A DNA stretch of 36,230 nucleotides. Source: Candidatus Omnitrophota bacterium. GTDB lineage: Bacteria > Omnitrophota > Gorgyraeia > Zapsychrales > Aceulaceae. The notes below the pieces were generated by a model. It was not told where the DNA came from. It searched no databases and saw only the letters and a list, made by a program, of their open reading frames with translations. Of this stretch, positions 3 to 23,946 are shown one piece after another (positions within the stretch are counted from its first letter, which is position 1; each line of letters opens with the position of its first letter). The position numbers and the translations under genes are program-made. The stretch spans positions 1-36,230 of the forward strand of contig JAQUUP010000020.1 in NCBI GenBank assembly GCA_028693815.1. The letters run 5' to 3'.

Positions 3-3000
3 GAAGATGCGAAGAAATATTTGATTGAAAGATTTAAAATTGAAGATGAAAGTAATTTTAAAATTGCAAGAAAGAGAAAAGGAGTAGGTGAAGAAGTTCT
101 AGCAGTCTCGCTAAAAGAAAAAAATTCAATTTTTGCTGCCATTGCTCCTGGAGCTACGTGGCAAGGAAATAGGAATTTTAGTAAAGAGGAATGGATGGAG
201 ATAACATTCCGTGTTTTGCCTAATGGTAGCGCAGGGTCTCCGATAGGAGAGTATGATTTAAGTGCAGCTGCAAAAGCTTGGAGACAAGCGACAGCTTTGG
301 CTCAAAAAAAAGACGGTGGCAAAAGTATTGTTCGCCAAATTGGTCGATTAAATGATCCTAAGAATAAAGGATTTTTTCAGGGGAAAAGAGAGCTTGACGG
401 GGCTGTTAAGCAATTTTTTGGCTCTACGGCAACGTATTCTTATTTTTCTGGGAACAATTTTCTTTCAGCGATTGAAAGCGGAACAAATAAAAAGCTTACT
501 TTTTACAACCGTGACACATTGAAGCCAATAAATTATGCAGAAGCAAAAAAGGCTAAGACTCTTCACGTTATTAAGGTTGGCGATCAAAGTATTGCGCTTG
601 TTGTATCGTCTTCAACGCTTAGAGTTGGTGATAAGATTAAAGGTGATTTTGCAGAGGCTTTTGAAAGAATTTATAATGTTTTTGATAGACGTTTGCCTAG
701 AAAAATAATTGTAGATTACGGAGAAGGGGAGGACTATTCTTTCGACCTAGGCAACAAAGTTTTTAAATTAGAGGATGCTTTGGACTTGGTTGAGGGCCAA
801 GAAGATATTACCTTGTTTGAAATGCAGTTTGAGGGCGTAATACAAGCAAAAATTAAATCAATAAATTTTGATAATACAGAATGGGAAGTTGTTTCTGTTC
901 GAACCGGACGGTCATCGTCAGTGCTTGATCAAAACTTAGCAAAAATTAGATTTAAAATTAAAACGAATCTTAACAATCAATTTGCAATTCAAGATTCGAT
1001 TATTCGTCAGGTGGAAGAAATTCTTGGCAAGCCTTTAGGAAAAATAATTTTTACTTCGCTTGATAAGAAGGGATTAGAGCAAAGGTTTTTTTATCAGCCA
1101 TCGGAAACATTAGAAGAAATCGAATTTCGGTATTCTTGGGGAACGTTTCGGGTAATAAAGCCAGAATCTTCTTATTCATCATGGTACGTTAAGAAAGGAG
1201 CAAAGCCTTTTGCTTTTCCTGAAAAGTCCACTGTACCAGCTAAGATTATAATCCCAAGTTTTGCTGATGATGTTCCAGCCAAGACAGTTTATGAGGCTGC
1301 AAAAAAAGTAGTCGAAGAAGGAGGATTAATCATTCAAGAGACTAAAATTGGTTCGCTGGAAGGTTATCCTAGTAGTTTAGGCGATGAGAAATTTCCTGAT
1401 AATGTCCGTGAGTTTTCTTTTGTGGTTAAGGAAAAAGGAACGATCATTTTTTTGAAAAAAGATGGATTTTGGAATCGTACAATTCTTGGCGTTAAAGGAT
1501 TTGATGAACAAGTTGAATTTGCGCAACCAACAGCTTTTGAAGCGACACAGCAATTAAGAAAGCAGATTATTGGCTTGATAGATCAAGGAGATGTTGATTT
1601 TAAAGATACTGAAGAAACAGGTCTTGAGGAAAAAATAGAAAATGCTGGCTACGAATTTAAAGTTATAAAGGATGCAAAAGGTTTAAAAGAAATGTTTACT
1701 CCGGTGAGCGGTCAATATATAGAGATTTTTGATCGAGAAGATGGTGAAGATATCTATAAGCCTGAAAATGTTATTAAAATTTTACAAAGTGAATTGGAAA
1801 AGAGCGAAATCATCGATGTTTACGCTCATGTCGTTACTGCTGGTGAGGCAAAAGTCATTGTCTTTTATGCTCCCGAGCAGGCTTCTTCTGATATTAAGAA
1901 AAAGAAGCTGGCTATTGATTTGCCAGCTGCAAAGCAACATCTTGATCAACTTATTGAGCTATCAGCAAAAGAAGAAATTGATTTGTTTGAGGTTGCTAAA
2001 CTGTTGCGCGATGATCCCATTATTTTAAAATTTGCCCCAAGAGAATGGCTTCAAATGCTTAAAAAAGAAGATATTGTTTCTGAGGATGGCCAAGACATTC
2101 TTTCGTCACAAGTTTTATTTAACATCATTACTTCTATTATTGATGCGATGTCATCAAAAAAACGTATTGATAATCAAGGTAATCCTGTTTTGAATCATGT
2201 AGAGCCGATTTCGTTTGTGCACGAGAATAAAGTACCGATAACTAGGCATGCAAGAACTCTCGCGAAAGAGCTTTATAAAGAACATAAAGAATCACCTGTG
2301 GGGCGAGATTATCTTGTTTTTTCATACAATCAAGCCGAGCGCGTTTTAGAGGATGATCCTGGAGTGAATCGTATTGCAATTAACGTCCAGGCAGCTAAAG
2401 GGTATGCCCAGGCGAATCTTGAAGGCAGGAATTTTGAAACTGATCCAAATAATCCCTTAAAGTTTTTTTATAAGCTGGCGGGGGGTATAGGTCAGGATTA
2501 TGATCCGGATCAGGATATGTTTAAACTTATTGATGATTACAATAAAAAGACTGGGGCCATTGTACAAGCATTGTGCTATGTAAGCAATGGATGGGGGTAT
2601 CGAAATACGGATGGCAGTTTTGAAAAGGTTAGCATCAAAGATGATATTATTCCCATGATCAAAGAGATCCATGAGAAAAAAGGTGTTAAGTTTTTTGCTT
2701 TAAGCGACACAACAGGAGAGGCGAATTCAAAGCAAACCTTTGAAGCTTTCGCTGAACTTTTTGATTATTTTAAAAAAGAAATAGAATCAGGAGAGATTGT
2801 TTTTACATATCATGGCCACACAGATTCTATTCAGGGGATTTTAAATGTTTTTGCCGCGATTAAAGCCGGTGTAAGAGAGATTGATGTAGGTCTTTTAAAT
2901 CTGGGCGGATCACCCACTGCATCTGCATCAAAAGGAAACGTTTGCGCTGAAGACTTAATCTTTATCCTTGAAGCTCTTGATGTTGATTCTGGGGTTGATT

Positions 3001-6000
3001 TAGATTCCTTAATCGAGGGCGCTCGCAGTGAAATTATTAAAACTATTAATGAAAAATATTTTCAAGATCGCATAAGCATTGTCGGTGATCTTTCTAGAGA
3101 AGCGCGCAAAAATCTAGACTCACATTTTATTGCGGGGCTAACTGCGAAAAAAATTTTAGAAAACGCCAGCAAGCTTAAGATTTCAGGATATTCTACATAC
3201 GTTGGGGTGCATGACCAAGTTGTTAGAAGCGTAGGGCCTGCAGATAAAATTGTGATTAAAGATAGATATGGGCATATAATTCCTTATCAAGATTTTAGTG
3301 AAGATGATTCTGATGAGGCCTTTGAAATTGTATTTCGATACAAGTGTGGTGCCGCGTTTAGCTTTCGGCGACCACCCTCCTTATCAAAGAATTGGGTGTA
3401 TGAAAAAGAAACGGCGAGTTCGACACTTACAAAGTTTAAGCCATACGAGCAAGGATTAACAGGGGAGTTCTTAAGCTATGTTAACGAAAATATTCTCACA
3501 GAAAGTAATTGGAGAGAAACTGAGGATTCAGGTGAGTATTATTCTGAGATGGAGACGCCTGCTGGAAGCCGAATCATGTTTGCAAGAGAGCTCCATAAAA
3601 GAGTCCCCTGGAAAGTGACCTATCTTGATTTAAAAGAACAAGATATTGGGGAGCTTAAAAATGTTCCGTTGTTGTTCCCGGATATCGATACTGCCGAAGA
3701 TCTTTTAGAGTTGATTAAGAAAGTAAAAATTAACACAAATGTTATTGGAGATTTTATTGAAGAGATAGAGTTTGAAGGCTCGCTTCAGAACAAGCCACTT
3801 AAAGATTTAGATTCTTTTAGAATTTTAGTTTTTGACAGGAGAATCAAAAAGAATCCATATGCAATCGAGCATCCGTACCTTATTAGCGCCCAAAAAGGTG
3901 AAGATGGATGGGATATCACGATTGAGAAAAGGTTTGGTGAAGAAAGAGAAAGAATTATTAAGACTCTTGTGGCCTTGATGAGCGGGGAGACTAATTTTGT
4001 TTCGAATGCGACCCTTGAACCTTATACAACAGAAGTTGTAATGAGCGATGGTTATGCGACAGTAAAAAGAGAACCTTTTTTTATGATGAGCAATACAGAT
4101 ACAGAAATTACAAGGAAAATTAAGGGTTCAGATGGAAAAGAAACTACAGTTTTTACGGCCCTAAAAGTTGTGCAAGATTCCTTCCCAAACATAAAAACTT
4201 TAGCGGAATTTTATAAATTTATAGAAGAAAAATTTGGGTATGGTGCTACAGAAGAAGGCTCAGGGTTAGGGTATAGTTTGGCTTTCTATGCAGCAAAAGA
4301 ATTATCTTCAAGCACCTTGACAATAAACAGGCAAAAAGTTATCGAAATTCTTGCTGAGCTTATTGAATCAGATGAAATCGATACTGAGATCCTAGAACGA
4401 TATAATCCAGAGCAACCGATGCGCAAACGTCAATTAAAAAAAAGAGCCACTTTAGAGCTAGGGATAGAGCAAAAGGCAGAAGAAATTATTAGAAAAAATT
4501 TGCAAAGCGAATTATTTCTTCGTGAGGTTTATTTATTTGCACAAGATGAATTTAAAGGCGGATATCAAGAGGCTTTAGAAAAGGCGAAAAGTTTAATCGG
4601 CCTCAAAGGCGATAAGTACGATTTTATAGATTATTTTAAAAGACAAAGCAACGCTCGAGGTTTTCATTGGATTGATTCAGCAAGTTACAGATCTGTGGAT
4701 TCGTTAGTTGATTTAACAACCGAGAATGGAAGCGAGATTATTTTTAAGCAACCAGATGGGGATGGTAGTAAATGGGAGTTCGAAAGCTTTAATGTTGATG
4801 AAAAAGATATGCGTTTGTTAGAAAAGTTTCCGTTTTGGTTATCTGATATTTTGCTTGTCGATATTAACAGTGCTGATGATTTTCTAGAAATTCTTAAAAA
4901 AGTTTATCTTGATGGACAGAGTTTAGGTATGGAAACATCTGATGGCAAATTTATTGTTCAGATAAACAAAAAGGGAAATAACGATTTTCGTATTTTACTT
5001 AAACCAAGGAATCGATCTCTAGATACGATTTCAGGTGATTATGAAATTTTGTTTAGCAGAGACGATAACAATGGCTGGAATATTAAAGTTTTAAGTCCAG
5101 AGGTTCCTGCTTTTGAGGCAAAGAAATTTATTATGGAGTTAAACGATCCTTATTTTTATGTTCCAAGAGGACAATTTTATCTTTCTCAGCTGTTGGGTAA
5201 GAGATTTTTTCTTGCGGAAGATATGCTTAGTAGTCTTCAGAGACTTGCTGGCGATATTTGGCAACAATATGCTGTTAAGGTAGATTCTTCAGAATCTTTA
5301 TCTCTAGAATTAGATCCAAAAGAAAAAATAGTTGAATTCGAAATTTCGGGAAGAAAACAAGAAACTGAACATGTGGTTTATCGTTTAAGCGAAAAAGGTT
5401 TTTATCTTTTATTTGTTGAACTTCTTGAAAATAAAGAAAATCGTCATGTAGCAAGAGAATTGTTTTGGTCCATGGCTCATCAGGCGCATTCTGGCATTTC
5501 GGATCAAGAACTTGAGTCTATTGCAAGAAAAAAGCTTTTAGAATTAGAAGGTGAAGGATTACAGTTTAAATATGGTCAGTTGCTTAATTTAAAAGGTAAA
5601 CTTGTTGAGGTCCCATTTTTTCTTAAAAAAAGTTTTTTCGATATTTTTACAGACAGATCAAGTTTTTTGTATATGATTACTAGATTAAATGGATGGGTTT
5701 CGAATATTGAGGGAGAAGATTCTGAAGATATTGTAAATATAAAAATTGGAGACGTCGGTCCACATTTTGATCTTCCTTTTACGGCTTTTCTGATTATGAT
5801 CGCGGAGATTTCTGATGATCCTCAAGGATTAAAATGGGTTAATCGTTTTTTAACAGAAGCTTTGAAAAAAGTCGATAATAACGACTTTAAGTTTATCCGC
5901 AATGACGATATCAAGGCGTCTTCCGCTACTCCCACAGGCGGTATTGATCTGACCGAGATTTATGAGGATTTAAACATTAAGATTGATCAAAGCGGGTCAC

Positions 6001-6203
6001 CTCTTGCTATTGAATTTCAGAATCTTAATCAGATTCATATTGAAGGATTGATGCCGGTCATTATTAATATTGTGCCTATATTAAATCTTCCAGTGCTTTT
6101 GGGTTTTGATCGTAATTTAGAAAAACCAACCAAAAGTTTGGCACATGCAGATTTTGAACCTATGGATCGCAGCCGGCCTTTCGATTATGCTTTAAAACAA
6201 TAA
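3..6203 (+). CDS. Giant protein with embedded HMG-CoA-lyase-like domain (5' partial)
   Basis: The frame is open to the window edge, so the true start lies upstream; at least 2,066 codons are visible. Numbering from the TTG at 21, residues about 665-1060 resemble an HMGL-like TIM barrel of the HMG-CoA lyase / pyruvate carboxyltransferase family: PREWLQ (674 on, family PRDGLQ), VEPISFV (727 on, family VEATSFV), DTTG (896), HGH (931-933, metal-binding H-x-H), LGGSP (961-965, family LGGCP) and GNVCAED (972-978). The catalytic Cys of HMG-CoA lyase is Ser here and the first metal-ligand Asp is Glu, so the reaction is unknown. The flanks, about 660 and 1,000 residues, match nothing I recognise, but contain recurring modules of a Gly-containing strand pair, a Trp strand, and an acidic (D/E)-D-hydrophobic helix. 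The end of the gene is sharp, with a terminator 24 bases later. Localisation cannot be judged without the N terminus. Confidence 0.85.
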   Translation, partial: EDAKKYLIERFKIEDESNFKIARKRKGVGEEVLAVSLKEKNSIFAAIAPGATWQGNRNFSKEEWMEITFRVLPNGSAGSPIGEYDLSAAAKAWRQATALAQKKDGGKSIVRQIGRLNDPKNKGFFQGKRELDGAVKQFFGSTATYSYFSGNNFLSAIESGTNKKLTFYNRDTLKPINYAEAKKAKTLHVIKVGDQSIALVVSSSTLRVGDKIKGDFAEAFERIYNVFDRRLPRKIIVDYGEGEDYSFDLGNKVFKLEDALDLVEGQEDITLFEMQFEGVIQAKIKSINFDNTEWEVVSVRTGRSSSVLDQNLAKIRFKIKTNLNNQFAIQDSIIRQVEEILGKPLGKIIFTSLDKKGLEQRFFYQPSETLEEIEFRYSWGTFRVIKPESSYSSWYVKKGAKPFAFPEKSTVPAKIIIPSFADDVPAKTVYEAAKKVVEEGGLIIQETKIGSLEGYPSSLGDEKFPDNVREFSFVVKEKGTIIFLKKDGFWNRTILGVKGFDEQVEFAQPTAFEATQQLRKQIIGLIDQGDVDFKDTEETGLEEKIENAGYEFKVIKDAKGLKEMFTPVSGQYIEIFDREDGEDIYKPENVIKILQSELEKSEIIDVYAHVVTAGEAKVIVFYAPEQASSDIKKKKLAIDLPAAKQHLDQLIELSAKEEIDLFEVAKLLRDDPIILKFAPREWLQMLKKEDIVSEDGQDILSSQVLFNIITSIIDAMSSKKRIDNQGNPVLNHVEPISFVHENKVPITRHARTLAKELYKEHKESPVGRDYLVFSYNQAERVLEDDPGVNRIAINVQAAKGYAQANLEGRNFETDPNNPLKFFYKLAGGIGQDYDPDQDMFKLIDDYNKKTGAIVQALCYVSNGWGYRNTDGSFEKVSIKDDIIPMIKEIHEKKGVKFFALSDTTGEANSKQTFEAFAELFDYFKKEIESGEIVFTYHGHTDSIQGILNVFAAIKAGVREIDVGLLNLGGSPTASASKGNVCAEDLIFILEALDVDSGVDLDSLIEGARSEIIKTINEKYFQDRISIVGDLSREARKNLDSHFIAGLTAKKILENASKLKISGYSTYVGVHDQVVRSVGPADKIVIKDRYGHIIPYQDFSEDDSDEAFEIVFRYKCGAAFSFRRPPSLSKNWVYEKETASSTLTKFKPYEQGLTGEFLSYVNENILTESNWRETEDSGEYYSEMETPAGSRIMFARELHKRVPWKVTYLDLKEQDIGELKNVPLLFPDIDTAEDLLELIKKVKINTNVIGDFIEEIEFEGSLQNKPLKDLDSFRILVFDRRIKKNPYAIEHPYLISAQKGEDGWDITIEKRFGEERERIIKTLVALMSGETNFVSNATLEPYTTEVVMSDGYATVKREPFFMMSNTDTEITRKIKGSDGKETTVFTALKVVQDSFPNIKTLAEFYKFIEEKFGYGATEEGSGLGYSLAFYAAKELSSSTLTINRQKVIEILAELIESDEIDTEILERYNPEQPMRKRQLKKRATLELGIEQKAEEIIRKNLQSELFLREVYLFAQDEFKGGYQEALEKAKSLIGLKGDKYDFIDYFKRQSNARGFHWIDSASYRSVDSLVDLTTENGSEIIFKQPDGDGSKWEFESFNVDEKDMRLLEKFPFWLSDILLVDINSADDFLEILKKVYLDGQSLGMETSDGKFIVQINKKGNNDFRILLKPRNRSLDTISGDYEILFSRDDNNGWNIKVLSPEVPAFEAKKFIMELNDPYFYVPRGQFYLSQLLGKRFFLAEDMLSSLQRLAGDIWQQYAVKVDSSESLSLELDPKEKIVEFEISGRKQETEHVVYRLSEKGFYLLFVELLENKENRHVARELFWSMAHQAHSGISDQELESIARKKLLELEGEGLQFKYGQLLNLKGKLVEVPFFLKKSFFDIFTDRSSFLYMITRLNGWVSNIEGEDSEDIVNIKIGDVGPHFDLPFTAFLIMIAEISDDPQGLKWVNRFLTEALKKVDNNDFKFIRNDDIKASSATPTGGIDLTEIYEDLNIKIDQSGSPLAIEFQNLNQIHIEGLMPVIINIVPILNLPVLLGFDRNLEKPTKSLAHADFEPMDRSRPFDYALKQ

Positions 6204-6226
6204 TATAATAACATTATATATATTAT

Positions 6227-6262
6227 AAAAAGCCCCTTTGTCAATTGACACAGGGGCTTTTT
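6227..6262 (+). terminator. Intrinsic terminator after the giant gene
   Basis: A perfect-looking stem (AAAGCCCCT-n-TGTCAATTGACA-n-AGGGGCTTTTT, one T/C mismatch) ends in a run of five T. It begins 24 bases after the stop codon of the giant gene and should end its transcript. Confidence 0.85.
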
Positions 6263-6292
6263 AGTGGTATTGATAAAAGAGTAGAGATGAAG

Positions 6293-6480
6293 TCCCGACA
6301 CCCTTCGGGTGAGGGATCACGTTCGAAAACTTAAATGTTTAATATCCTAACGCGTCACGCGCGTGGGATAACGTTCGAAAACCTAAATGTTTAATATCCC
6401 GACACCCTTCGGGTGCGGGATAAATTCGCGCCTATGATTTATGTCGCTTACGCTCAATAAATCATGCGCTCATTTAAGGA
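6293..6480 (+). repeat. Stacked palindromic repeat element, copy 1
   Basis: The block holds three short GC-rich hairpins (6293-6316, about 6344-6369, 6397-6420). The first and third share the core CCCGACACCCTTCGGGTG, and two 29-base direct repeats (6319-6347, 6371-6399, one mismatch) lie between them. It continues as the box GGATAAATTCGCGC (6418-6431), then a 9-bp stem hairpin (ATGATTTAT / ATAAATCAT, 6433-6464), then CTCATTTAAGGA (6469-6480). The last box contains the Shine-Dalgarno sequence of the following PilZ gene. The same order of box, variable hairpin and box recurs at 13671-13764, and inverted at 10258-10333. Confidence 0.75.
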
Positions 6481-6485
6481 GGCAT

Positions 6486-6857
6486 ATGGACGAAAGAAGA
6501 TCGTATCAACGTTTTTCAATGATTTTACCTGTAGAATATAAGCTTGCGGCTTTTCAAGATCAGCCTACAATGACGTCAAGTTTGGATATTAGTGGCAACG
6601 GAATGCGTTTTTGTATCAAGGATAAAGCAAGCATTGGAGAAGAGGTTCATCTTTATGTTCAGATTCCTGATTCAGAAAAAGTACTTTTGGCGGCAAAAGT
6701 TGTTTGGGTTAAATTTCTTGAAGATGATCAAGAGTATGAAATAGGCGTTAAGCTTGCGGATACAAAATCAGAAGACGGAAAAAAGTTTATGGATTTTTAT
6801 TCGCAACAGATGCTTATTTTTCTAGAAGAAAATAAAGATCAAAATAAAATAGAGTAA
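6486..6857 (+). CDS. PilZ-domain protein (c-di-GMP receptor-like)
   Basis: This is a 123-residue single-domain PilZ protein. Both c-di-GMP-binding motifs are present: RxxxR at residues 5-9 (RSYQR) and D-x-S-x-x-G (DISGNG) about 35 residues later, which predicts real ligand binding rather than a degenerate fold. I place the start at ATG 6486 because AAGGAGG sits at 6476-6482; the in-frame ATG at 6441 lies inside the repeat hairpin and would add 15 residues of repeat-derived sequence. No output domain is attached, so it probably acts by binding a partner. A second PilZ protein lies at 11491. Thirty-two bases separate it from the next gene. Confidence 0.9.
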   Translation: MDERRSYQRFSMILPVEYKLAAFQDQPTMTSSLDISGNGMRFCIKDKASIGEEVHLYVQIPDSEKVLLAAKVVWVKFLEDDQEYEIGVKLADTKSEDGKKFMDFYSQQMLIFLEENKDQNKIE

Positions 6858-6889
6858 TTTGTGAGTTGTTTAACACCTAAAGGATTTCT

Positions 6890-8368
6890 GTGAAGGTTTT
6901 ATGGTTTCGTTATTGCTTGATTGCAATTATTATTCTTATGTGTGTCAACGCCAATAGTCAGGATTTTGTTAAGACTCCTAATGTGAGCGGGCAATTTTAT
7001 CCTTCCGATAAAGATCAACTTGTTTCTGAAGTTGATCAGTTCCTTTCAAAGGCAAAGCCTAGCCCTGTCGATGGAAAAATACAAGTTATTATTTCTCCGC
7101 ATGCGGGGTACCTTTATTCTGGAGAGGTGGCTGCTTACGGATACAAGGCAGCGAAAGAGCAGCAATATTCTACGATTGTTGTTTTAGCTCCAACACATCG
7201 CTTTGAACTTTCAGGATCATCTATTTGGGCCAAGGGGGCATTTCAAACACCGCTGGGATCAGTTGAGGTTGATGAAGATTTTGCCAGCCAGCTTATTTCA
7301 GGAAATACTAATGTTCAATTTACTTCAGAGGTGTTTGCGCAAGAGCATTCGCTGGAGGTTCAGATCCCATTTTTGCAGAGAACATTTAAAGATTTTAAAA
7401 TTGTTCCCGTGATTATCGGACAACTCAATCTTGCTCAATGTCAAGATCTCGCATTATCTTTGGATAAGATCATCGGCGCTCGGGAAGATGTTTTGATTGT
7501 TGTCAGCAGTGATATGTCTCATTTTCATGACAGGAAAACAGCGAAAGCCATGGATGACAAGACGATTGCCATTGTTAAAGAGTTAGATGCGGAAGAATTG
7601 TTTGAACGATGCTCGCAGGGCCTTTCTGAGTTGTGTGGTATTTTTCCTGCTACCGTTGCAATGTTGTATGCTGATAAAAGAGATCTTGATGTCTCTGTTT
7701 TAAAATATGCTGATTCGGCGGATATTACAGGAGACAAGAATTCTGTTGTTGGGTATTTCTCGGCTGTATTTTATAAGCAAAATAAAATGAAAGCAAAGGA
7801 TGATAAAACAATTCCGTTGAGTGATGCACAAAAAAAACGTTTAATCGAAATTGCAAAAAAAACTATAAATCAATATGTTGAAACAGGAAAAGTTTTGGAT
7901 GTTAGCGAGACTGATCAACGGCTTTTGAAGGAAGAGGGCGCTTTTGTGACGATTCATAAAGATGGGAATTTGCGGGGTTGCATTGGTAATATTTTTGGCC
8001 AGGGACCGCTTTATAAAACTGTTCGAAATATGGCGATTGCAGCATGTTCGCAAGATCCCCGTTTTCCTCCTGTAAGCAAAAAAGAGCTTAAAGATTTAGA
8101 AATCGAGATTTCTGTTTTATCAAAGCCGTGGCGGATTAGCAATCTAGACGAAATTGAGCTTGGCATTCATGGCGTGATTGTTAGCAAAGGCTCATCTCAT
8201 AAGGGTTTATTTTTGCCGCAAGTTGCAACCGATCAAGGTTGGGATCGTGAACAATTTTTATCTTACCTGTGCGCGCATAAGGCTGGATTGCCTGCGGATG
8301 CATGGAAAGATCCTTCCGTTGTTTTAGAGGTTTTTACTGCCCAAGTTTTTTCAGAAAAAGATTTTTAA
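6890..8368 (+). CDS. Exported MEMO-AMMECR1 fusion (AmmeMemoRadiSam system B+A)
   Basis: A 492-residue protein starting at GTG 6890 with AAAGGA just upstream. Residues 1-24 look like a signal peptide (short basic N-region, hydrophobic core from about 8 to 19, then VNANS). Residues about 27-297 are a MEMO domain: PHAGY (His71), PTHR (His103), EHSLEVQIPFL, SSDMSHF and LCG (Cys249). The two His and the Cys match the metal-site triad described for human MEMO1. Residues about 310-492 are an AMMECR1 domain with the hallmark LRGCIG (361-366), DPRFPPV and HGVIV. B and A proteins are usually cytosolic and encoded beside a radical-SAM enzyme; none is seen here. The biochemical role of the system is not established. 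Confidence 0.93.
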   Translation: MKVLWFRYCLIAIIILMCVNANSQDFVKTPNVSGQFYPSDKDQLVSEVDQFLSKAKPSPVDGKIQVIISPHAGYLYSGEVAAYGYKAAKEQQYSTIVVLAPTHRFELSGSSIWAKGAFQTPLGSVEVDEDFASQLISGNTNVQFTSEVFAQEHSLEVQIPFLQRTFKDFKIVPVIIGQLNLAQCQDLALSLDKIIGAREDVLIVVSSDMSHFHDRKTAKAMDDKTIAIVKELDAEELFERCSQGLSELCGIFPATVAMLYADKRDLDVSVLKYADSADITGDKNSVVGYFSAVFYKQNKMKAKDDKTIPLSDAQKKRLIEIAKKTINQYVETGKVLDVSETDQRLLKEEGAFVTIHKDGNLRGCIGNIFGQGPLYKTVRNMAIAACSQDPRFPPVSKKELKDLEIEISVLSKPWRISNLDEIELGIHGVIVSKGSSHKGLFLPQVATDQGWDREQFLSYLCAHKAGLPADAWKDPSVVLEVFTAQVFSEKDF

Positions 8369-8392
8369 ATTTTAAAAAGGATTATAAAGAAA

Positions 8393-10258
8393 ATGAAGCT
8401 ACCAAAAATTTTAGTTATTATTATCTCTGTTGTTTGTATTTTTCTTGTTGTTATTTCGCTCGGAATTTTTATTCTGATTAAGATGTTTGACATTAAAAAA
8501 TTTCAACCTCAGATTATTTCGCAGGTTGAGAATGTGCTAGGCAGAGAGGTTTCTTTAAAAGATTTGTCACTTTCGTTTTCCTTTGCTAATGGGCTTGTTG
8601 CCTCAATAGAAGGTCTTCAAGTTTTGGATGACCCGGCTTTTTCAAAAAAGAATTTCTTTTCAGTTTCGCAAGCTCGTCTTAAGTTAGATTTGATTCCAAC
8701 AATAACCAAGCGTGAAGTTTTTGTATCTAGCATTGAATTTATTGATCCGTCTATTTTGATTGTTCGAAACGACCAAGGTGTTTTTAATTTTCAGACATTT
8801 AAGTTTTTGGATTCATCATCTGGCGCGGCTCAACCAGCAGCTGTTTCGCCGGGCGTGCTATCTACTGGCGATCTTTCTTCTGCAGCAGCGATTCCCTTGG
8901 TTTTTATAAAGAATGTAGCGATTAAAAATGGCACATTAAATTTTGTTGATAATACCGGTGATGAACCGATGGCGATTGAAGTTTCGAAGATATTTTTTGG
9001 AATAAATAATTTTTCTTTGAACAATGTTTTTGATTTTGTTTTGGAAGCAGCAGTGTTTTCTGATGAAAAGAATATAAAAGTTGATGGAAGGGTAAAGATT
9101 GATCTTGGAAAACCAGTTGCGTATCTTCGAGATACAAAGTTCAAATTAAACTTAGAATCATTAAGCTTAGAAAAGATTGCTGCAATGCTTCCTGCAATAA
9201 AGCAAATAGAGCTTAAAAAGAATTTGGCAGGAGAAGTATTTTGTTCGATTGATTTAATGGAAATAAGCCCGGAAAAGATGACGATTGTTTATTTAAAGGG
9301 CGGGATTGAAAACGGTAAGATTGAAAGTGGTCGCTTGAAAGAGCCATTGCATTCGATTGTCGCCAATGTTGAAATCAAGGAAGATAATGTTTCGATTGAT
9401 CAAATTTCCGCTAAGCTGGGAGATGGGAATATTTTAGCTAAAGGCTCTGTGTTGGGTTATCAGAAAGATCAACAGTATGATATTTCTTTAGATGCTTCAA
9501 ATGTTGATTTAGGCAAGACAGTTTATCAGGGTGATCAAGATATTAAGTTGTTAGGACTTTTGTCAACTTCCGCTGAAATTAAAGGCACAGGATTTTCGTC
9601 TTTATTGGCGTTTCAGCCGAAGATGGGGCGACAAAATTTAACACTTAAAGAAGGAAAGCTTGAAAATATTAATGTTTTAAAAGTTGTTTTAAGCCAGCTT
9701 AATTTTGCTCCTGATTTAGTTCAGAAATTAGAGCAAAACCTTCCTGAGAAATATAAAGAAAAATTAAAACAAAAAGACACCCCTTTAACAAATGTTATAT
9801 TTGCGTCTTATATCGAGGATAATAAAATTTATCTTGATTCTGTAAGCGTTGCGACAGATATTTTTAGTCTTGAGGGCAAAGGGACACTGGATTTTGATTT
9901 GAACGCTGACATTCAGGCGCGCATTATAATTCCTCAGGATTTATCGCAAAGCATGGTTGATTCAATTGAGGAATTTAGTTATTTGATTGATGAAAACAAA
10001 GAAATTGTGATTCCTGTTATGATTAAGGGCAAGGCCCCGGATAAGCTTTCTTATTTTCCTGATTTAGAATATATCGGAAAAAGACTTTTAAAAAATAAAG
10101 GGCGTCAGGAGCTTCAAAAAGTCTTAGGTAAAGTTTTGAAAACAGGCGGAGGCTCTGATGAATCGTCTGGATCCGGCGAGGGTGAGGGCGAATCAAATCA
10201 GAATCCATCTCCCGAAGAGCAGATTATTGGAAATGTTTTGGATATGATTTTCAAATAA
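8393..10258 (+). CDS. AsmA-family envelope protein
   Basis: A 621-residue protein with one N-terminal membrane segment (about residues 5-30), followed by the AsmA-type N-terminal block (FQPQI, VLGREV, LKDLSLSFSF) and long alternating beta-strand sequence. The rest therefore probably lies in the periplasm, and AsmA relatives are linked to phospholipid transport and outer-membrane homeostasis. The C-terminal 45 residues are a Gly/Ser/Glu-rich linker ending in a short hydrophobic helix (GNVLDMIFK). AAAAAGG lies 12 bases before the ATG. It follows the MEMO-AMMECR1 gene by 24 bases, in the same direction, suggesting co-transcription. Its stop codon touches the inverted copy of the hairpin repeat. 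Confidence 0.85.
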   Translation: MKLPKILVIIISVVCIFLVVISLGIFILIKMFDIKKFQPQIISQVENVLGREVSLKDLSLSFSFANGLVASIEGLQVLDDPAFSKKNFFSVSQARLKLDLIPTITKREVFVSSIEFIDPSILIVRNDQGVFNFQTFKFLDSSSGAAQPAAVSPGVLSTGDLSSAAAIPLVFIKNVAIKNGTLNFVDNTGDEPMAIEVSKIFFGINNFSLNNVFDFVLEAAVFSDEKNIKVDGRVKIDLGKPVAYLRDTKFKLNLESLSLEKIAAMLPAIKQIELKKNLAGEVFCSIDLMEISPEKMTIVYLKGGIENGKIESGRLKEPLHSIVANVEIKEDNVSIDQISAKLGDGNILAKGSVLGYQKDQQYDISLDASNVDLGKTVYQGDQDIKLLGLLSTSAEIKGTGFSSLLAFQPKMGRQNLTLKEGKLENINVLKVVLSQLNFAPDLVQKLEQNLPEKYKEKLKQKDTPLTNVIFASYIEDNKIYLDSVSVATDIFSLEGKGTLDFDLNADIQARIIIPQDLSQSMVDSIEEFSYLIDENKEIVIPVMIKGKAPDKLSYFPDLEYIGKRLLKNKGRQELQKVLGKVLKTGGGSDESSGSGEGEGESNQNPSPEEQIIGNVLDMIFK

Positions 10259-10333
10259 GCACTTAAGTTATGGAGCCGAAGGCGACATAACTTAGAAGTG
10301 CGAATTTGTCCCGCACCCGAAGGGTGTCGGGAC
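10258..10333 (-). repeat. Double-hairpin repeat element, copy 2 (inverted)
   Basis: Read on the minus strand, this has the same order as copies 1 and 3: a hairpin with core CCCGACACCCTTCGGGTGCGGG (split here as GTCCCGACACCC / GGGTGCGGGAC), the box CAAATTCGCAC, a second hairpin with 9-bp stem TAAGTTATG / CATAACTTA and loop TCGCCTTCGGCTC, and then GTGCTTATTTG. The loop sequence resembles that of copy 1 while the stem differs, with both arms changed together. The element starts exactly at the stop codon of the AsmA gene, and it lies in a 104-base intergenic gap. Confidence 0.7.
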
Positions 10334-10362
10334 ATTGAGAGCATAACTTATTTTATCTGTAT

Positions 10363-11154
10363 ATGTTAGAAAAAAAACCATACAAAAGATCTCGAAATTT
10401 ATTTAATCCGCAGTCAAAGTCTCCTTTTCGCTTGAGTCGATCACGATTAGAGAATTTTATAAAATGTCCTCGGTGTTTTTATCTAGATCGTCGCTTAGGA
10501 ATCGATCATCCAAGCATGCCAGCGTTTACGCTTAATAGCACTGTGGATGAACTTTTAAAAAAAGAATTTGATTTTTATCGGCGCGAGCAAACGCCTCATC
10601 CATTGATGCAAAAATATCGTATTGATGCCGTTCCTTTTTTGCATCGAAATATGGATCAGTGGCGTGAGAATTTTAAGGGAATTCGATATGAGGATACAAA
10701 AAGAAATTTAATTATATTCGGGGCGATCGATGATCTTTGGGTTAATCCAAAAGGAGAGCTATTTGTGGTAGATTATAAAGCAACAAGCGCCACGGGCACG
10801 ATTTCTTTGAATAGTGAATATCGTCAAGCGTATAAGCGCCAAATGGAAATTTATCAATGGTTGCTGCGAAAACAAAACCTGGATGTTTCTAATACGGGTT
10901 ATTTTGTTTATTGTAACGCGAATAAGAATAGAAAGTCTTTTGATGGTCATTTGGATTTTGATGTTGAAGTTTTAGGGTATATTGGTGATGATGCGTGGGT
11001 TGATGGTGTTATTCAAAGTGCTTATGATTGTTTATGCAACGATCATCTGCCAGAATTTTCAGAAACGTGCGAATTTTGTCAATATTATAAGTCGATTGAT
11101 GATTTTAAGAATCAAAAAGTCTATAGAAAAGAAGAGCAGCAATTTTTGTTTTAG
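10363..11154 (+). CDS. PD-(D/E)XK nuclease-superfamily protein with Cys cluster
   Basis: A 263-residue protein. The nuclease core motifs are Asp123/124 in GAIDDLW and Asp137-x-Lys139 in VVDYKAT, followed by Gln160-x3-Tyr164 (QMEIY), the pattern of Cas4/RecB/AddB-type nucleases. The N terminus has SRLENFIKCPRC (Cys35, Cys38), and the C terminus has Cys223, Cys225, Cys236 and Cys239 (CEFC), a layout that could hold an iron-sulfur cluster as in Cas4 and AddB. No cas genes or helicase are nearby, so a Cas4 role is not supported; DNA repair or processing is an inference. I see no clear Shine-Dalgarno sequence. It is followed, 11 bases later, by a small lipoprotein gene. Confidence 0.8.
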   Translation: MLEKKPYKRSRNLFNPQSKSPFRLSRSRLENFIKCPRCFYLDRRLGIDHPSMPAFTLNSTVDELLKKEFDFYRREQTPHPLMQKYRIDAVPFLHRNMDQWRENFKGIRYEDTKRNLIIFGAIDDLWVNPKGELFVVDYKATSATGTISLNSEYRQAYKRQMEIYQWLLRKQNLDVSNTGYFVYCNANKNRKSFDGHLDFDVEVLGYIGDDAWVDGVIQSAYDCLCNDHLPEFSETCEFCQYYKSIDDFKNQKVYRKEEQQFLF

Positions 11155-11165
11155 GAGATTTGACC

Positions 11166-11321
11166 ATGAGCATAAAGAAATTCTTGATTATTTTTGTTTT
11201 ATTTGTAGTTTCAGGGTGCGCTTTTACGCAAGAAGAGTATGATCTTCAGGAAAAGTATAACAAGAAGCGCCAGGAGGTTCGGGAGGCCGAAAAAAAAGAT
11301 TCTTTAACGGTTCGCTGGTAA
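11166..11321 (+). CDS. Small lipoprotein, 51 residues
   Basis: This short gene starts at ATG 11166 with AGGAG at 11153-11157, overlapping the stop of the nuclease gene. The product begins with a basic MSIKK, has a hydrophobic stretch (FLIIFVLFV), and then the lipobox VSGC, with Cys at residue 18. After that come about 33 highly charged residues predicted to be helical. The good ribosome binding site, lipobox and clean stop make it very likely real. It is probably anchored to a membrane by lipid at the Cys. The function is unknown; small entericidin-like or Lpp-like lipoproteins have a similar overall shape, but I see no specific match. Confidence 0.75.
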   Translation: MSIKKFLIIFVLFVVSGCAFTQEEYDLQEKYNKKRQEVREAEKKDSLTVRW

Positions 11322-11333
11322 TTAAAACCTTTA

Positions 11334-11361
11334 TTGCAAGAAATTTGTTTTATGCTAAAAT
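11334..11361 (+). promoter_or_regulatory. Possible sigma70-type promoter
   Basis: TTGCAA (11334-11339) and TAAAAT (11356-11361) are separated by 16 bases. It lies in the gap after the lipoprotein gene and upstream of a terminator-like hairpin and the PilZ-coiled-coil gene. The region is AT-rich, so chance matches are likely. Confidence 0.4.
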
Positions 11362-11415
11362 ATTAATAATAATATAAGCATATATAGATATGAAAAATAA
11401 TCAAAAAGATCTAAG

Positions 11416-11454
11416 AAAGCAGCCTTAAAAACAAGGGGTTGCTTTTTCTATTTT
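11416..11454 (+). terminator. Intrinsic terminator or attenuator
   Basis: The stem AAAGCAGCC / GGTTGCTTT (one G-U pair) has a 12-base loop and is followed by TTTTTCTATTTT. It may simply end the transcript of the preceding genes (6486-11321). As it lies 55 bases downstream of a possible promoter and 37 bases upstream of the next start codon, it could instead act as an attenuator. Confidence 0.65.
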
Positions 11455-11490
11455 AAGCGTAAATAATGCGCAAATTCCGAGGAGGGGATT

Positions 11491-12669
11491 ATGGTACGTA
11501 ATTTATTCGGATTTCCAAAAAAACTTTATAAAGAGGCTCGCAGTCAATTTCGCGTTAAGGAACATCTTCCAATTAAGTGGATGTCAGGTTCAGATGTTTC
11601 TGGTATTGGCAAAATTAGGGATATTAGCGCTTCAGGGGCGCTGATTGAAGCTAAAGCAATGAAGCCGTTTGGAGACGGCACTGTGCTTCAGATGCAGGTT
11701 GACTCTCCTGCACAAGGCGAATTTGTTCCAGCGCAGGGACGTATTGTGTGGTCAAGGCGTAAAAGTTTCTTCAATCAAAGCTTGCTCTGTGGAGTTGAAT
11801 TTATTAATCCTGCTTCTGAGATTATGGAAAGATTAAAAGAGCGGGTATCGGCTCGTATCGCAAAAATAGAGCGCTTTGATCGATTTGGTGATATTTTAAA
11901 TTTGGTTCTTTTTATTTTGGCGGTTGGTTTAGGCATTCTGGTGGTGCGTCAGCAGTCTTCTATTCAAAAAACAATTGAGAAGTCAAATCATCTCATGCTG
12001 GGATCTTCCAAAAAACAAGCGGATCTTTATCGAATGTCGATGAGTGCATATCAAATGCAGTCTCTTGTGCTTGCGGAACTTACAAAAAATTACAATACAA
12101 CTCAGGCGTTACTTTCTCAGACAGAAAGCTTGCTTGCGCAAACGCAGGAAGATTATGGATTAGCCAAACAAGAAGTTAGCGCCTTGAAGTCTTCATTAGA
12201 GCAAGCGCGTATTGCAGGTTTGGATACCTCGACAAAAGTATTAATTTCTGAACGAGATGATTTAAAAGGACAGCTGGCAAGCTTAAGAACAGAGATTAAT
12301 TTGTTGCTTCAGGAAAATCCTGATTTGTTGTCTTCGCAGACAGCACCTTTTCAGAGTCGTGTTGATAATATTAATATTCAGATGCAAGATTTGAAATATT
12401 CGACATTAATGGCTAATATCAAAGAGCATAAGAAAGCCATTGGAGAATCTCGCTATAAAATTGCATCATTAAAACGTCAAGCGCGAAAGGTTAAAAAGGA
12501 AATTTTGCATCAAAGAGATGCGATTGGCTTAGCTCAAGGAAATCAGGGTTATCTGATCAAAGATGGGGAGATTTTTTCTGCACAAAAAACAGCGCAGACC
12601 TCTGCTGGCCTTAAAGAATCAGGTGAACCAGTAAAAAAAGTTAATATCAATGTTTCACTTTTTGAATAA
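11491..12669 (+). CDS. PilZ-domain membrane protein with long coiled coil
   Basis: A 392-residue protein with a strong GAGGAGGGG ribosome binding site. Residues about 17-115 form a PilZ domain with RxxxR at 17-21 (RSQFR) and DISASG at 44-49, both intact c-di-GMP motifs. A single membrane segment covers about 134-152. Residues about 155-355 are Gln/Lys/Glu/Leu-rich with heptad-like spacing, predicted coiled coil (for example SLLAQTQEDYGLAKQEV), and a short tail ends in VNINVSLFE. With the PilZ domain in the cytoplasm, the coiled coil would project into the periplasm, so c-di-GMP binding could be passed across the membrane; that is inference. It does not match a named family I know. Confidence 0.85.
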   Translation: MVRNLFGFPKKLYKEARSQFRVKEHLPIKWMSGSDVSGIGKIRDISASGALIEAKAMKPFGDGTVLQMQVDSPAQGEFVPAQGRIVWSRRKSFFNQSLLCGVEFINPASEIMERLKERVSARIAKIERFDRFGDILNLVLFILAVGLGILVVRQQSSIQKTIEKSNHLMLGSSKKQADLYRMSMSAYQMQSLVLAELTKNYNTTQALLSQTESLLAQTQEDYGLAKQEVSALKSSLEQARIAGLDTSTKVLISERDDLKGQLASLRTEINLLLQENPDLLSSQTAPFQSRVDNINIQMQDLKYSTLMANIKEHKKAIGESRYKIASLKRQARKVKKEILHQRDAIGLAQGNQGYLIKDGEIFSAQKTAQTSAGLKESGEPVKKVNINVSLFE

Positions 12670-12678
12670 TTAGGCCAC

Positions 12679-13422
12679 GTGAAGATAAAGAATTGCCAAA
12701 TTGTAACCGCAGCTGGAACGCTTTCCTACGTTTATGTTCGTTCACCTCGACGAAAGACCGTTGCTATCCAAATTGATCAAGATTTAGAAGTGCGGGTTTT
12801 TGCGCCATCTTTCTTAAATGAACAAGAAGTTATTGATTTCATTGAAGATAAGGCTTTTTGGATTAAGCAAAAGATTAATGCATTTAAGAAGCGGCATTTT
12901 TGCTCAACAAAGCGATTATTTTCCGATGGAGAGGAGTTTTTGTTTTTAGGAGAAAAACACAAGCTTTGTTATCAAGAGACTTTAAATAAGAAAGTGTCTA
13001 TTCAGTTTTCGTCTGATCATTGGGATGTCTATGTTCCAAAAGTACTAGCACAAGAAGATATCGAGCCTTTGGTTAGAAAAGCGTTTGTTCAGTGGTATCA
13101 GCGTGAAGCTAGAGAGATTTTGGCAAGTCGGATTTTTTATTTTGCACGAATTTTAAAGGTTGATCCAAGCAAGGTCAGCATCCGTACGCAAAAAAAGATT
13201 TGGGGTAGTTGTCATCATTCGACGAAGCGTATTAATTTAAATTGGAAGATTGTAATGGCCCCTCTTCGGGTGATGGATTATATTATTGTTCATGAGTTGT
13301 GTCATTTAAAAACGCCGAATCATTCTAGTAAGTTTTGGGATCGCGTTCAAAAGGTTTTGCCGAAGTATAAAGAGTGTGAGAAATGGCTCTACGGTCATTC
13401 TGGGTTAATGGTTTTATCTTAA
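12679..13422 (+). CDS. YgjP-like / SprT-type zinc metallopeptidase (DUF45)
   Basis: A 247-residue protein from GTG 12679. The C-terminal part carries the zinc motif HELCH (205-209) with a third His at 215 (HELCHLKTPNHSSKFW), preceded by GSC and INLNWK, the signature of the YgjP-like metallopeptidase family. The usual family length is about 230-250 residues, so it is full length. No signal peptide is seen, so it should act in the cytosol. The substrate is not known for the family. It starts nine bases after the preceding gene and is followed eight bases later by the DUF167 gene, so these are likely co-transcribed. No convincing Shine-Dalgarno precedes the GTG, leaving some doubt about the exact start. 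Confidence 0.9.
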   Translation: MKIKNCQIVTAAGTLSYVYVRSPRRKTVAIQIDQDLEVRVFAPSFLNEQEVIDFIEDKAFWIKQKINAFKKRHFCSTKRLFSDGEEFLFLGEKHKLCYQETLNKKVSIQFSSDHWDVYVPKVLAQEDIEPLVRKAFVQWYQREAREILASRIFYFARILKVDPSKVSIRTQKKIWGSCHHSTKRINLNWKIVMAPLRVMDYIIVHELCHLKTPNHSSKFWDRVQKVLPKYKECEKWLYGHSGLMVLS

Positions 13423-13429
13423 AAATATA

Positions 13430-13651
13430 ATGCGAATTGATATCAAAGTTATTGCGGGAGCCAAAAAAAATTTTATAAAGCAGGAGGATGATATTTTTAA
13501 GGTTTATTTGAGTGCTCCTGCGGTTGACGGAAAGGCTAATAAAGCCTTGGTTGCATTTTTGGCCAAACATTTCAAAATTTCAAAAGGAAAGATAGAAATC
13601 ATAAAAGGATTGAAATCTAGAAACAAAACAATTATGATAGAAGGAATTTAA
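13430..13651 (+). CDS. DUF167 / YggU family protein
   Basis: A 73-residue protein with the family signature: an N-terminal strand with VIAGAKKN, the central APAVDGKANKAL, and the C-terminal IIKGLKSRNKTIMI. These match the V-P-x-A, A-P-P-V-D-G-K-A-N and G-x-x-S-R-x-K features of DUF167. The family is widespread, small and soluble, with no settled function. It lies eight bases after the metallopeptidase gene and is the last gene before the third hairpin repeat copy. Confidence 0.92.
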   Translation: MRIDIKVIAGAKKNFIKQEDDIFKVYLSAPAVDGKANKALVAFLAKHFKISKGKIEIIKGLKSRNKTIMIEGI

Positions 13652-13670
13652 TAATAAGAAAATCCTAATT

Positions 13671-13764
13671 CGTCCCGCTAGGTCGCGGAACTTACAGGAT
13701 AAATTCGCGCAGTCTGACTTAACGTTGTCTACCGGCTTTCGCAAGTCAGGCACTCATTTAAGGA
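13671..13764 (+). repeat. Double-hairpin repeat element, copy 3
   Basis: A short hairpin TCCCGC / GCGGA at 13673-13689 is followed by GGATAAATTCGCGC (13697-13710, identical to copy 1), a hairpin with stem CTGACTT / AAGTCAG (about 13714-13749), and the box CTCATTTAAGGA (13753-13764, identical to copy 1). The final AAGGA is the ribosome binding site of the following YqeY gene. The middle hairpin differs from copy 1 in sequence but keeps its pairing. Confidence 0.75.
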
Positions 13765-13771
13765 ATGCAAT

Positions 13772-14215
13772 ATGTTAGAGCAGCAAATTTCTAAAGATTA
13801 TATCCAGGCGATGAAGGCTAGAGATAGTTTTAAAAGCTCTGTTTTAAGTTTTTTGAGAGCTCAGTTAAAAAATGTTTTGATTGATAAAAAGATTGATCAG
13901 CTTGAAGATCAAGAAGTGATTGCTATTATTAAAAAACAAATTAAGCAGAGACAAGATTCTATTGCTCAATTTGAGCAGGGGAATCGTCAGGATTTAGCAG
14001 AGAAAGAAAAAAAAGAGCTAGAGATTTTAAGAAGTTATTTGCCGGAAGAGATGTCCGATCAAGAGGTTAAGAAAATTATTGCGGAAGTCATTCAGGAAAC
14101 AGGTGCCGCTAGCATGAAAGATATGGGCGCAGTTATGAAGGCTGTTGGGTTAAAAATTCAGGGACGAGCGGATAATAAGCTGGTTAGCAATTTAGTTCGA
14201 GAATCACTCTCGTAA
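13772..14215 (+). CDS. yqeY: GatB/YqeY-domain protein
   Basis: A 147-residue protein, the normal length for free-standing YqeY. It resembles the C-terminal tRNA-binding domain of GatB: LEQQISKDYIQAMKARD at the N terminus, LRAQLKNV, EKEKKELEILRSYLPEEMS in the middle, and GAASMKDMGAVMKAV followed by GRADNKLVSNLV at the C terminus. The family is thought to bind tRNA or associate with amidotransferase functions, but its role is not firmly known. Its Shine-Dalgarno AAGGA is provided by the conserved 3' box of the hairpin repeat. The polysaccharide deacetylase gene starts 20 bases downstream. Confidence 0.93.
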   Translation: MLEQQISKDYIQAMKARDSFKSSVLSFLRAQLKNVLIDKKIDQLEDQEVIAIIKKQIKQRQDSIAQFEQGNRQDLAEKEKKELEILRSYLPEEMSDQEVKKIIAEVIQETGAASMKDMGAVMKAVGLKIQGRADNKLVSNLVRESLS

Positions 14216-15018: not shown

Positions 15019-15045
15019 GTTAAACGATAAAACAAAAGGAACTTG

Positions 15046-18000
15046 ATGAATGCAAAAGGAGTAGAACTCAATCCGTATTATTTAGATAATCAAGATCGAT
15101 TTGTAATTGAGAATTATAATAATACAAAGACGTTTACTAATTTCTTTCCTGGAATCGCTGGGGCGTGGGGAATCCCGATGTGGGTTTTTTATGTGAATCG
15201 TGGTCAATGTGTTTCGAGTTTTGGAATTGAGAGCAAAGACAAATCTATTATGGAGTTTCAGCCTGCTAATAAGGCGTATCGACACGTTTCTACTCAAGGG
15301 TTTCGTACGTTTCTTAAAATCAAAAGTGGCAACAAGACTATTTTTTATGAACCATTTCAGGAAAATTTATCCAATTGTCAATTTAAGCGTACTCAAAAGA
15401 TGGCAATTTCAGCGCACGATTTGACCATTGAAGAGGTTAACCAGACATTAGGTATTTCCGTTGAAGTTAATTATGCGACATTGCCTGAAGAGCAATATGC
15501 AGCGCTAATTCGAAAAGTCTCTGTTAAAAACTTATCTAAGAAAAAATACGATATTGAAATTATTGACGGCATGCCTGCGATTGTTCCTTATGGTTTAAAT
15601 GATCGACTTTTAAAAGATATTTCTCGAACGGTTGAAGCTTGGATTCAGGTTAGTAATTTAAAGAAAAAAGCTGCCTACTATAATTTGAAGGTTGTTGTTT
15701 CTGATAAATCGTGTGTTGAGAATATTACGGAAGGAAATTTTTATTTTAGTTTTCAAGAAAATGGCAAGACACCAAAACTTTTAGATCCGATTGTTCAGTC
15801 AGCATGTATTTTTGGAAAGGCTAAAGATTTTATTTATCCAAAGGCATTTGTTGACGAAAAGAACTTTCAGGTTCCCAAGGATCAGAAGACGAGAAACAAG
15901 ACACCGTCTGCCATGAGCTTTGCTAAAAGTTCGCTTAAAGCAGGACAAAAAACCGTGATCACATCTTTGATTGGACACATTCACAGTAAACCTGAGCTGA
16001 ACCGCATTGTTAAAAAAAGTATTTATGGCGATTATTTAGATGTCAAAGCAGATCGAAGCCGTGCCGTTATTGATGAGATTCGAAATTTAGTTTTTACGAA
16101 TAGTGGTTCTCGAGAATTTAATTTGTATTCGATGCAAACATTTGTTGATAATGTTTTGCGTGGAGGTCTTCCCGTTTCGTTTAAAACAGAGCAAGGTCGC
16201 GTGTCTTTTAATGTGTTTAGTCGAAAGCATGGAGATCCAGAAAGAGATTATAATTATTTTGTTTTAAACCCAACATTTTTATCTCAAGGAAACGGTAACT
16301 ATCGGGATGTTAATCAAAATAGGCGTAACGATATTTGGTTTAATCAAGATGTTAAAGACACTGGTATTATTAATTTCTTAAATTTGAGTCAAGCTGATGG
16401 ATACAATCCTCTTGTTGTCAGAGGGACAGCTTTTGCTTTATCTAATTCTAAATTAGCAACGAGTTTGGTTAAGAAATACGTAAGCAGTGGTAATCGAAAA
16501 ATGGTTAGCGATCTTCTTGAAAAGGATTTCTTTCCAGGCGAAGTTCTAAAAGTTATTTTTGAAAACGACATTAAGCTGACTGTAAGGCCAAGAGAATTTT
16601 TAACAACGATTCTTTCTTCTTGTCATATTCGCGAGTTAGCAGATCACGGGGAAGGGTTTTGGACAGATCATTGGACGTATAATCTCGATTTGATTGAAAG
16701 CTATTTGAATGTTTATCCTGAAAACCTCAAAGATTTGCTTGCAGACAAAAAGGCATTTACTTTTTATCATAATGATCATTATGTTTTGCCTCGATGTCGA
16801 AAATATGTTTTGACAGAGCGTGGGCCTCGTCAATATCAATCTGTGGCAAAGTTATCAAAAGATCTTGTCTCCAAGAAAGATAATAAACTACGAGTTCATA
16901 ATGGAACAGGACGTGTTTATCATACCAATCTTATCGTCAAGCTTTTATGTCTCATTGTTAATAAAGCAGCTTCTTTGGATCCCTCTGGTATTGGTGTTGA
17001 GATGGAGGCTGATAAACCAAATTGGTATGATGCTCTCAATGGATTGCCAGGGCTTTTTGGTTCGTCAATTTCTGAAACATTAGAAGTTAAGAGGGCGTGT
17101 CTGTTTTTGTTAAATTCATTAGAAGAGATAAAAGCAAATGATCAGGATTCTGTTGATATTTTTGAGGAATTAGCGAGCTTCTTGTCAAAGTTAAGCGATG
17201 CTCTTTTGAAACAGACTGGTTCTTTATCCTACTGGAAGAAATCAAATGATATCAAAGAAGCGTATCGTCATTCTGTTTTAATGGGAATTACCGGAAAGGA
17301 AAGAGCTGTTTCTATTTTAAAAATAAAAAAGTTTTTAAATCTTGTTCTTAAGAAAATAGATAAAGCAATTGTTCTTGCGAAGGATGAAAAAGGAGTGCTG
17401 GCGACTTATTTTAGTCATGAGCTTGTTGACTATAAGAAGCTTAAACAAGTAAACGATCAAAATTTGCCATTTGTTGCTCCATTAAAATTCAAGAGACATG
17501 CTTTGCCGCCATTTCTTGAGGGTTTTGTTCATGCGCTTCGATCTGAAACGAGCATTCAAGGAGCAAGAGAATATTACAAAAAAGTTCGAGCGAGCAAGCT
17601 GTTTGACCAAAAATTAAAGATGTATAAGGTCAATGCTGATTTATCTGGCGAATCATCTGAAATCGGACGGACCCGAATATTTCCTGCTGGTTGGCTTGAA
17701 AACGAATCGATTTGGTTACACATGGAATATAAATTCTTGCTTGAGCTTTTACGGTGTGGGCTTTATGAAGAATTTTATTCTAATTTAAGAAATACAGTGG
17801 TTCCTTTTTTGGATCCAAAGAAATATAGTCGTAGTATTTTAGAAAATTCATCGTTTATTGTTAGCAGCGCTCATGAAGACCCTAAGAGTCATGGTCGAGG
17901 ATATGTCGCTCGATTAAGTGGCTCAACGGCTGAGTTCGTGCACATGTGGCTTTTTATGAATGTTGGCATAAAACCTTTTTCATTAGACAAAAATGGGAAG

Positions 18001-19548: not shown

Positions 19549-19564
19549 GAATTAAATATTAGCC

Positions 19565-20455: not shown

Positions 20456-20458
20456 AAT

Positions 20459-21989: not shown

Positions 21990-21991
21990 AA

Positions 21992-23943: not shown

Positions 23944-23946
23944 TTG

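Follow-up and report, generated by a model that had tools for sequence, protein, structure and literature searches.

Polymorphic exported proteins have fixed ends and exchangeable middles. In the processed polyproteins of viruses and in prohormones, a short recognition motif is repeated at the module boundaries of a long precursor. Seymour et al. 2023 (PMC10066038) reported giant open reading frames (ORFs) of more than 20 kb in the phylum Omnitrophota, which they interpreted as resembling adhesins or coats and in which few domains are annotated; these ORFs are called functionally obscure. Here, we introduce a giant modular ORF in 36,230 nucleotides of an uncultured Candidatus Omnitrophota bacterium (the window), which is contig C20 of genome G000 read from its first base. 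The ORF occupies positions 3 to 6203 of the + strand, as a single uninterrupted frame of 2066 codons whose 5' end is open at the contig end; all features of this ORF given below lie on the same strand. It encodes a barrel resembling 3-hydroxy-3-methylglutaryl-CoA (HMG-CoA) lyase. In our reading, with a probability of roughly 0.55, the barrel forms one module of a modular polyprotein that is exported by Sec and may be cut at short boundary motifs. Conserved terminal domains, active-looking enzyme modules, and boundary motifs now make the function of such ORFs a testable question.

The barrel module spans residues 644 to 1036 (1932..3110), both limits being approximate, and is recognized by sequence, profile, and fold. 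It matches PF00682, the HMGL-like/DRE-TIM superfamily, with E=1.1e-13 and 51.6 bits, above the Pfam gathering cut-off of 29, and the NCBIfam HMG-CoA lyase model PRK05692 (NF004283) with 3.4e-19. In the PDB, the single barrel sequence matches the HMG-CoA lyase 6nds (1.3e-14), and a profile of six relatives matches 1ydo (5.5e-30) and human HMGCL (about 1e-28). The AlphaFold2 model of the barrel has a pLDDT of 84 and a pTM of 0.87, and a Foldseek search with this model places HMG-CoA lyases at the top, including 1ydo of B. subtilis (E=1.6e-15, TM 0.83 on the target) and human HMGCL 2cw6 (TM 0.82). Homology to HMG-CoA lyase and the TIM-barrel fold are nearly certain. An earlier note, written from the sequence of the window, had proposed such a barrel within a giant protein and had named its fold as a test beforehand; the profile search and the structural comparison both bear it out. 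A chance match of motifs is ruled out by the profile, PDB, and fold matches. Matches to DUF2963 and Lac_Phage_Head were under the cut-off and were discarded.

To examine the active site, the barrel was aligned with four plasmid-borne proteins annotated as HMG-CoA lyases; its residues are numbered in the 2066-residue frame. The catalytic arginine is kept and the metal-ligand aspartate next to it is replaced by glutamate (R680-E681, 2040..2045, with the glutamate codon at 2043). This change of the R-D pair of HMG-CoA lyases to R-E is found in six of six relatives. Three further elements are kept: the glutamate of the IEAxSFV motif (E734, 2202..2204), the H-x-H of the metal site (H937-G-H939, 2811..2819, with H937 at 2811 and H939 at 2817), and the asparagine of GN..ED (N979, 2937..2939). 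The catalytic cysteine is replaced by S970 (2910..2912; Ser964 in the numbering of the earlier note), giving GGSP instead of GGCP. At this position, serine is present in the window protein, G001, and G124, and asparagine in G002, G003, and G056. The order of motifs and both substitutions are thus as the earlier note had described them, and the residues it named fall in the corresponding columns of the alignment. Like HMG-CoA lyase (PF00682; NF004283/PRK05692; 1ydo, 2cw6, 6nds), the barrel has the TIM-barrel fold, the arginine, the second glutamate, the H-x-H, and the asparagine in the same motif order. Unlike HMG-CoA lyase, the barrel has glutamate for the metal aspartate and serine or asparagine for the catalytic cysteine, and the family adds an invariant Y-x-S-N strand and N-terminal helices and is built into a giant protein with predicted export.

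Pairwise identity among the six barrels is mostly 23-30%, rising to 52% between the window protein and G001 and to 42-46% within G002, G003, and G056. Because the Arg, Glu, Glu, His, His, and Asn are invariant across all six proteins at such low identity, a retained metal site is more plausible than decay. The earlier note had suggested a different or lost chemistry for a metal-binding barrel; the metal site appears to stand, and the chemistry may be different or lost. Conservation over this distance points to a metal site that is probably in use, with a changed chemistry. The best profile, PDB, and fold matches are all HMG-CoA lyases, and a working HMG-CoA lyase that tolerates both substitutions might be considered. 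This is improbable, since the barrel reaches only 69.1 bits against the NCBI HMG-CoA lyase cut-off of 246, and the R-E pair and the loss of the cysteine are constant in all six relatives. In addition, the relatives are 19-28% identical to HMG-CoA lyases, which is the distance expected between these lyases and other DRE-TIM enzymes, and neighbors from the leucine or ketone-body pathway are not consistently present. A literature search found no mutants at the Arg41/Asp42 site of HMGCL. By the criteria tested, the barrel is a new DRE-TIM variant and not an HMG-CoA lyase, and it provides an example of a DRE-TIM active site in which R-E replaces R-D. It is probably an active enzyme with a substrate other than HMG-CoA. 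A divalent metal would be bound through Glu681, His937, His939, and Asn979, and the barrel, with Arg680 and Glu734, would make or break a carbon-carbon bond as other DRE-TIM enzymes do. The neighbors of the barrel are PGK in one host, LOG, receiver, and sugar-transferase domains in another, glycogen-synthase-like, GT9, and guanylate-kinase domains in a third, and AceK with an adjoining isocitrate lyase ORF in a fourth. Since the neighbors differ in every host, the substrate cannot be inferred from them, and a role of the barrel as a piece of one conserved pathway was rejected.

The N-terminal part of the window protein appears to lie on a different contig of G000. Contig C23 breaks off in a 443-residue fragment (L095:10376-11704) with a Sec signal peptide and a domain of ~340 residues, the N-terminal domain (NTD). 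The two ORFs upstream of this fragment, of 550 and 1187 residues, keep the gene order of G001, and the genes that follow the window ORF keep the order of both G001 and G002. By synteny, the fragment would be the missing N-terminus of the window protein, across the unassembled gap between C23 and C20. The gene would then extend from the 6.2 kb seen in the window to ~7.5 kb or more, which is under the 20-kb size of the published giant ORFs. The earlier note had counted 660 residues ahead of the barrel; this figure covers the content of the contig, and with the C23 fragment included, the barrel would be preceded by no fewer than about 1,080 residues. Hosts of the barrel include Candidatus Aceula meridiana and Ca. 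Aceula lacicola, members of the same genus as the window genome. The syntenic orthologue of Ca. A. meridiana is complete, with 2042 residues, and lies inside a 538-kb contig. It contains a signal peptide, the ~340-residue NTD, the barrel, and a ~60-residue GGIDL tail. The tail is also found in the window protein, at residues 1977-2035 (5931..6107, 4e-24). The window copy is cut by the contig end, and such a long ORF could in principle be separate genes joined by an error of assembly or reading frame. The chance of this is negligible: the frame is unbroken over 2066 codons, Ca. A. meridiana has a full-length orthologue, and independent assemblies, which rule out the fusion, hold barrel-containing ORFs of 2730, 2863, 3484, and 5747 residues.

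The window protein belongs to a large family in which a signal peptide, the conserved NTD, variable modules, and the conserved GGIDL tail follow one another. The NTD is found in 25 of 28 relatives of the same order, with up to 77 matches per genome, and the tail likewise in 25 of 28. Among 49 family ORFs, which were chosen because they matched, 35 contain both ends, with a median of 1838 residues, and a crude signal-peptide pattern is present in 34 of these 35. Neither the NTD nor the tail has a Pfam match. The NTD fragment has no match in NCBIfam, and the NTD has no sequence or fold match in the PDB, its structural model being of moderate quality (pLDDT 73) with no PDB neighbor. These proteins very probably form a family of exported modular proteins, as signal peptides and shared ends suggest. 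The precursor would be exported by the Sec pathway, and the NTD and the tail may serve in folding, targeting, or retention. As with the giant ORFs of Seymour et al., the family consists of very long ORFs in the same phylum and is predicted to be extracytoplasmic. In contrast to them, the NTD/tail proteins are mostly 1,100-4,800 residues long and contain enzyme modules and boundary motifs. The literature searched contains no description of the NTD/tail family, its enzyme modules, or its boundary motifs, although an earlier account is possible in a giant-gene preprint cited by PMC12057145. To our knowledge, the host architecture is apparently undescribed.

The barrel subfamily itself is found in only 6 of 384 genomes of the phylum, that of the window included, and always within ORFs of 2042-5747 residues. 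In a tree of the six barrels and four HMG-CoA lyases, the window and G001 form one group and G002, G003, and G056 another, with 100% support each; the tree does not resolve the placement of G124 and of the lyases, or whether the giant-embedded barrels are a single clade. The syntenic locus of Aceula carries one barrel type in G000 and G001, and in G002 it carries PGK and another barrel type that is closer to the barrels of other genera. Such a pattern suggests that modules were exchanged between ends that stayed conserved. The earlier note had not known of a comparable arrangement and had suggested a search in other Omnitrophota; the giant protein is confirmed, and it turns out to be one case of a large family with exchangeable enzyme modules. 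Polymorphic exported proteins similarly have an export signal, a conserved N-terminal domain, swappable modules, and many copies per genome. They differ in that the modules of the NTD/tail family are paralogues of metabolic enzymes and that its N-terminal domain is new. The longest barrel host, in G056 (L011:1-17241), is an ORF of at least 5747 residues with alpha-amylase, starch-synthase-like, GNAT, HMGL-like, GT9, and guanylate-kinase domains.

The middles of the family include modules of phosphoglycerate kinase (PGK, 3e-102), pyruvate phosphate dikinase (PPDK), enolase, glyceraldehyde-3-phosphate dehydrogenase (GAPDH), acyl-CoA dehydrogenase, methyltransferase, and GNAT types. Many middles have no Pfam match, so that only a minor share of the annotated content consists of enzyme modules. 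Inspection shows that the PGK, both tandem GAPDH, acyl-CoA dehydrogenase, and enolase modules retain their active-site motifs. Most of these genomes also contain PGK, enolase, and GAPDH of normal housekeeping length. The PGK module was considered as the sole PGK of its genome and this was rejected, because a normal PGK is also there. In the enolase module of G002 (contig C8, L128:4315-9030), the C-terminal TIM barrel (residues 946-1260) precedes the N domain (from residue 1279). The module is apparently circularly permuted, with its catalytic motifs kept, and it is the only enolase found in this 95% complete assembly. Another G002 protein (contig C32, L127:3817-12144), of 2776 residues and with NTD and tail, contains the two tandem GAPDH modules and the acyl-CoA dehydrogenase. 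An ORF of 2991 residues in G015 (contig C80) contains two GAPDHs and an enolase. In G124, two adjacent giant ORFs (L025:82-5292 and 5401-13989) contain isocitrate lyase in the first and AceK and the barrel in the second; isocitrate lyase and AceK both belong to the glyoxylate shunt, and RSELR-like motifs are located at the module boundaries. The giant proteins of G124 have signal peptides by inspection, and the NTD is not present in them.

Short motifs at module boundaries vary by lineage: SSS in the genus of the window, and D-x-A-M-[LVI], [RHK][SAT]ELR, and RSE-x-R elsewhere. In the window protein, SSS is located at residues 202-204 (606..614), where G001 and G002 also have SSS at the orthologous place by inspection, and at residues 304-306 (912..920), where G001 has SSS and G002 has SSA. 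A further SSS is at residues 1435-1437 (4305..4313). Directly ahead of the tail is SSA (KASSATPTGGIDL, 5919..5927), and SSA or SSS precedes the tail in G001 and G002 too. In Aceula, the density of SSS in family ORFs is 3.6 times that in other ORFs (117 occurrences vs 32 in shuffles), and 5 of 40 SS[SA] lie inside annotated domains, which make up 41% of residues (P=1e-4), with domain limits set by hand from Pfam tables. In G124, [RHK][SAT]ELR occurs 18 times in 6610 residues of giant ORFs and not once in 13561 residues of the other ORFs of the contig, and it is always outside annotated domains in the two ORFs checked. In G123, which belongs to a different family within the same order, RSE-x-R occurs 14 times against 0.12 expected, and two copies tightly bracket AceK. 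D-x-A-M-[LVI] occurs 33 times in G022 and 19 times in G015, where it is also found directly before the tail. The enrichment is strong in lineages f62, f55, and f5 and moderate for SSS in the genus of the window.

The motifs could have come from an inserted DNA repeat without protein function, like the in-frame palindromic elements of Rickettsia. The rather uniform codons of the G123 motif (12 of 15 serine codons are TCC) would fit such an origin. In G124, by contrast, the 18 sites have 18 distinct DNA sequences that use all six leucine codons and five arginine codons, and SSS in Aceula uses both TCN and AGY codons. A DNA-repeat origin is rejected for G124 by this codon diversity and is highly improbable overall. 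In this clearest lineage, codon diversity indicates that the motif is under selection at the protein level. The simplest reading is that the boundary motifs are recognized as protein sequence, for example by a protease, and the SSS motifs of the window protein would most likely be recognized by a processing protease that frees the modules. We put site-specific processing at somewhat below even odds. The polyproteins of viruses and prohormones share with these proteins a repeated short motif at the module boundaries of one long precursor. They are unlike the Omnitrophota proteins, which are bacterial, have paralogues of metabolic enzymes as modules, and would be cleaved only putatively, by a candidate protease.

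Alternatively, the giant protein may remain uncut as a surface or periplasmic scaffold, with enzyme folds recruited for binding or structure and the motifs acting as flexible linkers or modification sites. We regard this as possible but rather unlikely. The published giant ORFs have been interpreted as adhesins or coats (PMC10066038), SSS would make a plausible flexible linker, the metal aspartate and the catalytic cysteine of the barrel are changed, and a substrate supply for exported glycolytic enzymes is not obvious. On the other hand, the barrel retains catalytic motifs, and so do those PGK, GAPDH, enolase, and acyl-CoA dehydrogenase modules that were inspected. The motifs [RHK][SAT]ELR, RSE-x-R, and D-x-A-M-[LVI] are specific, unlike a generic linker composition, and RAELR has no serine or threonine to modify. 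Several points weigh against a Sec-exported polyprotein cut at its boundary motifs. Export, cutting, and activity are predicted from sequence, and the N-terminus of the window protein is assigned by synteny, across the unassembled gap. The G003 and G056 hosts have no tail, and their 5' ends are cut. In lineages f3, f4, f6, and f7 no boundary motif emerged, so the motifs are not a phylum-wide rule. The SSS test used hand-set domain limits, SSS may be no more than a common flexible linker, and the G123 motif has rather uniform codons.

A more far-reaching proposal, which is tentative and in our view doubtful, is that Omnitrophota make exported multi-enzyme polyproteins. Catalytically intact enzyme paralogues, flanked by NTD and tail or following a signal peptide, would be released by proteases that recognize the boundary motif of each lineage. 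The enzyme set would comprise glycolysis, the glyoxylate shunt, and a new DRE-TIM lyase. If true, a set of metabolic enzymes would operate beyond the cytoplasm, for instance within the envelope or inside cells of a host or of prey. The family raises the questions of whether these are processed polyproteins and why glycolytic or glyoxylate-shunt enzymes would be exported.

Several other genes of the window were noted. A gene for a Memo/AMMECR1 protein (6890..8368, +), which lies outside this system, follows the giant ORF and is a syntenic marker in three of three Aceula genomes. An ORF of 1095 residues (15043-18330, +) has no Pfam match and contains neither NTD nor tail. Genes for MoxR AAA, von Willebrand A, and BatD proteins stand in a row at 18550-25770 (+), as in a Bat-like operon. 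LpxB (27023-28162, -; 6.4e-102) points to an outer membrane that bears lipid A.

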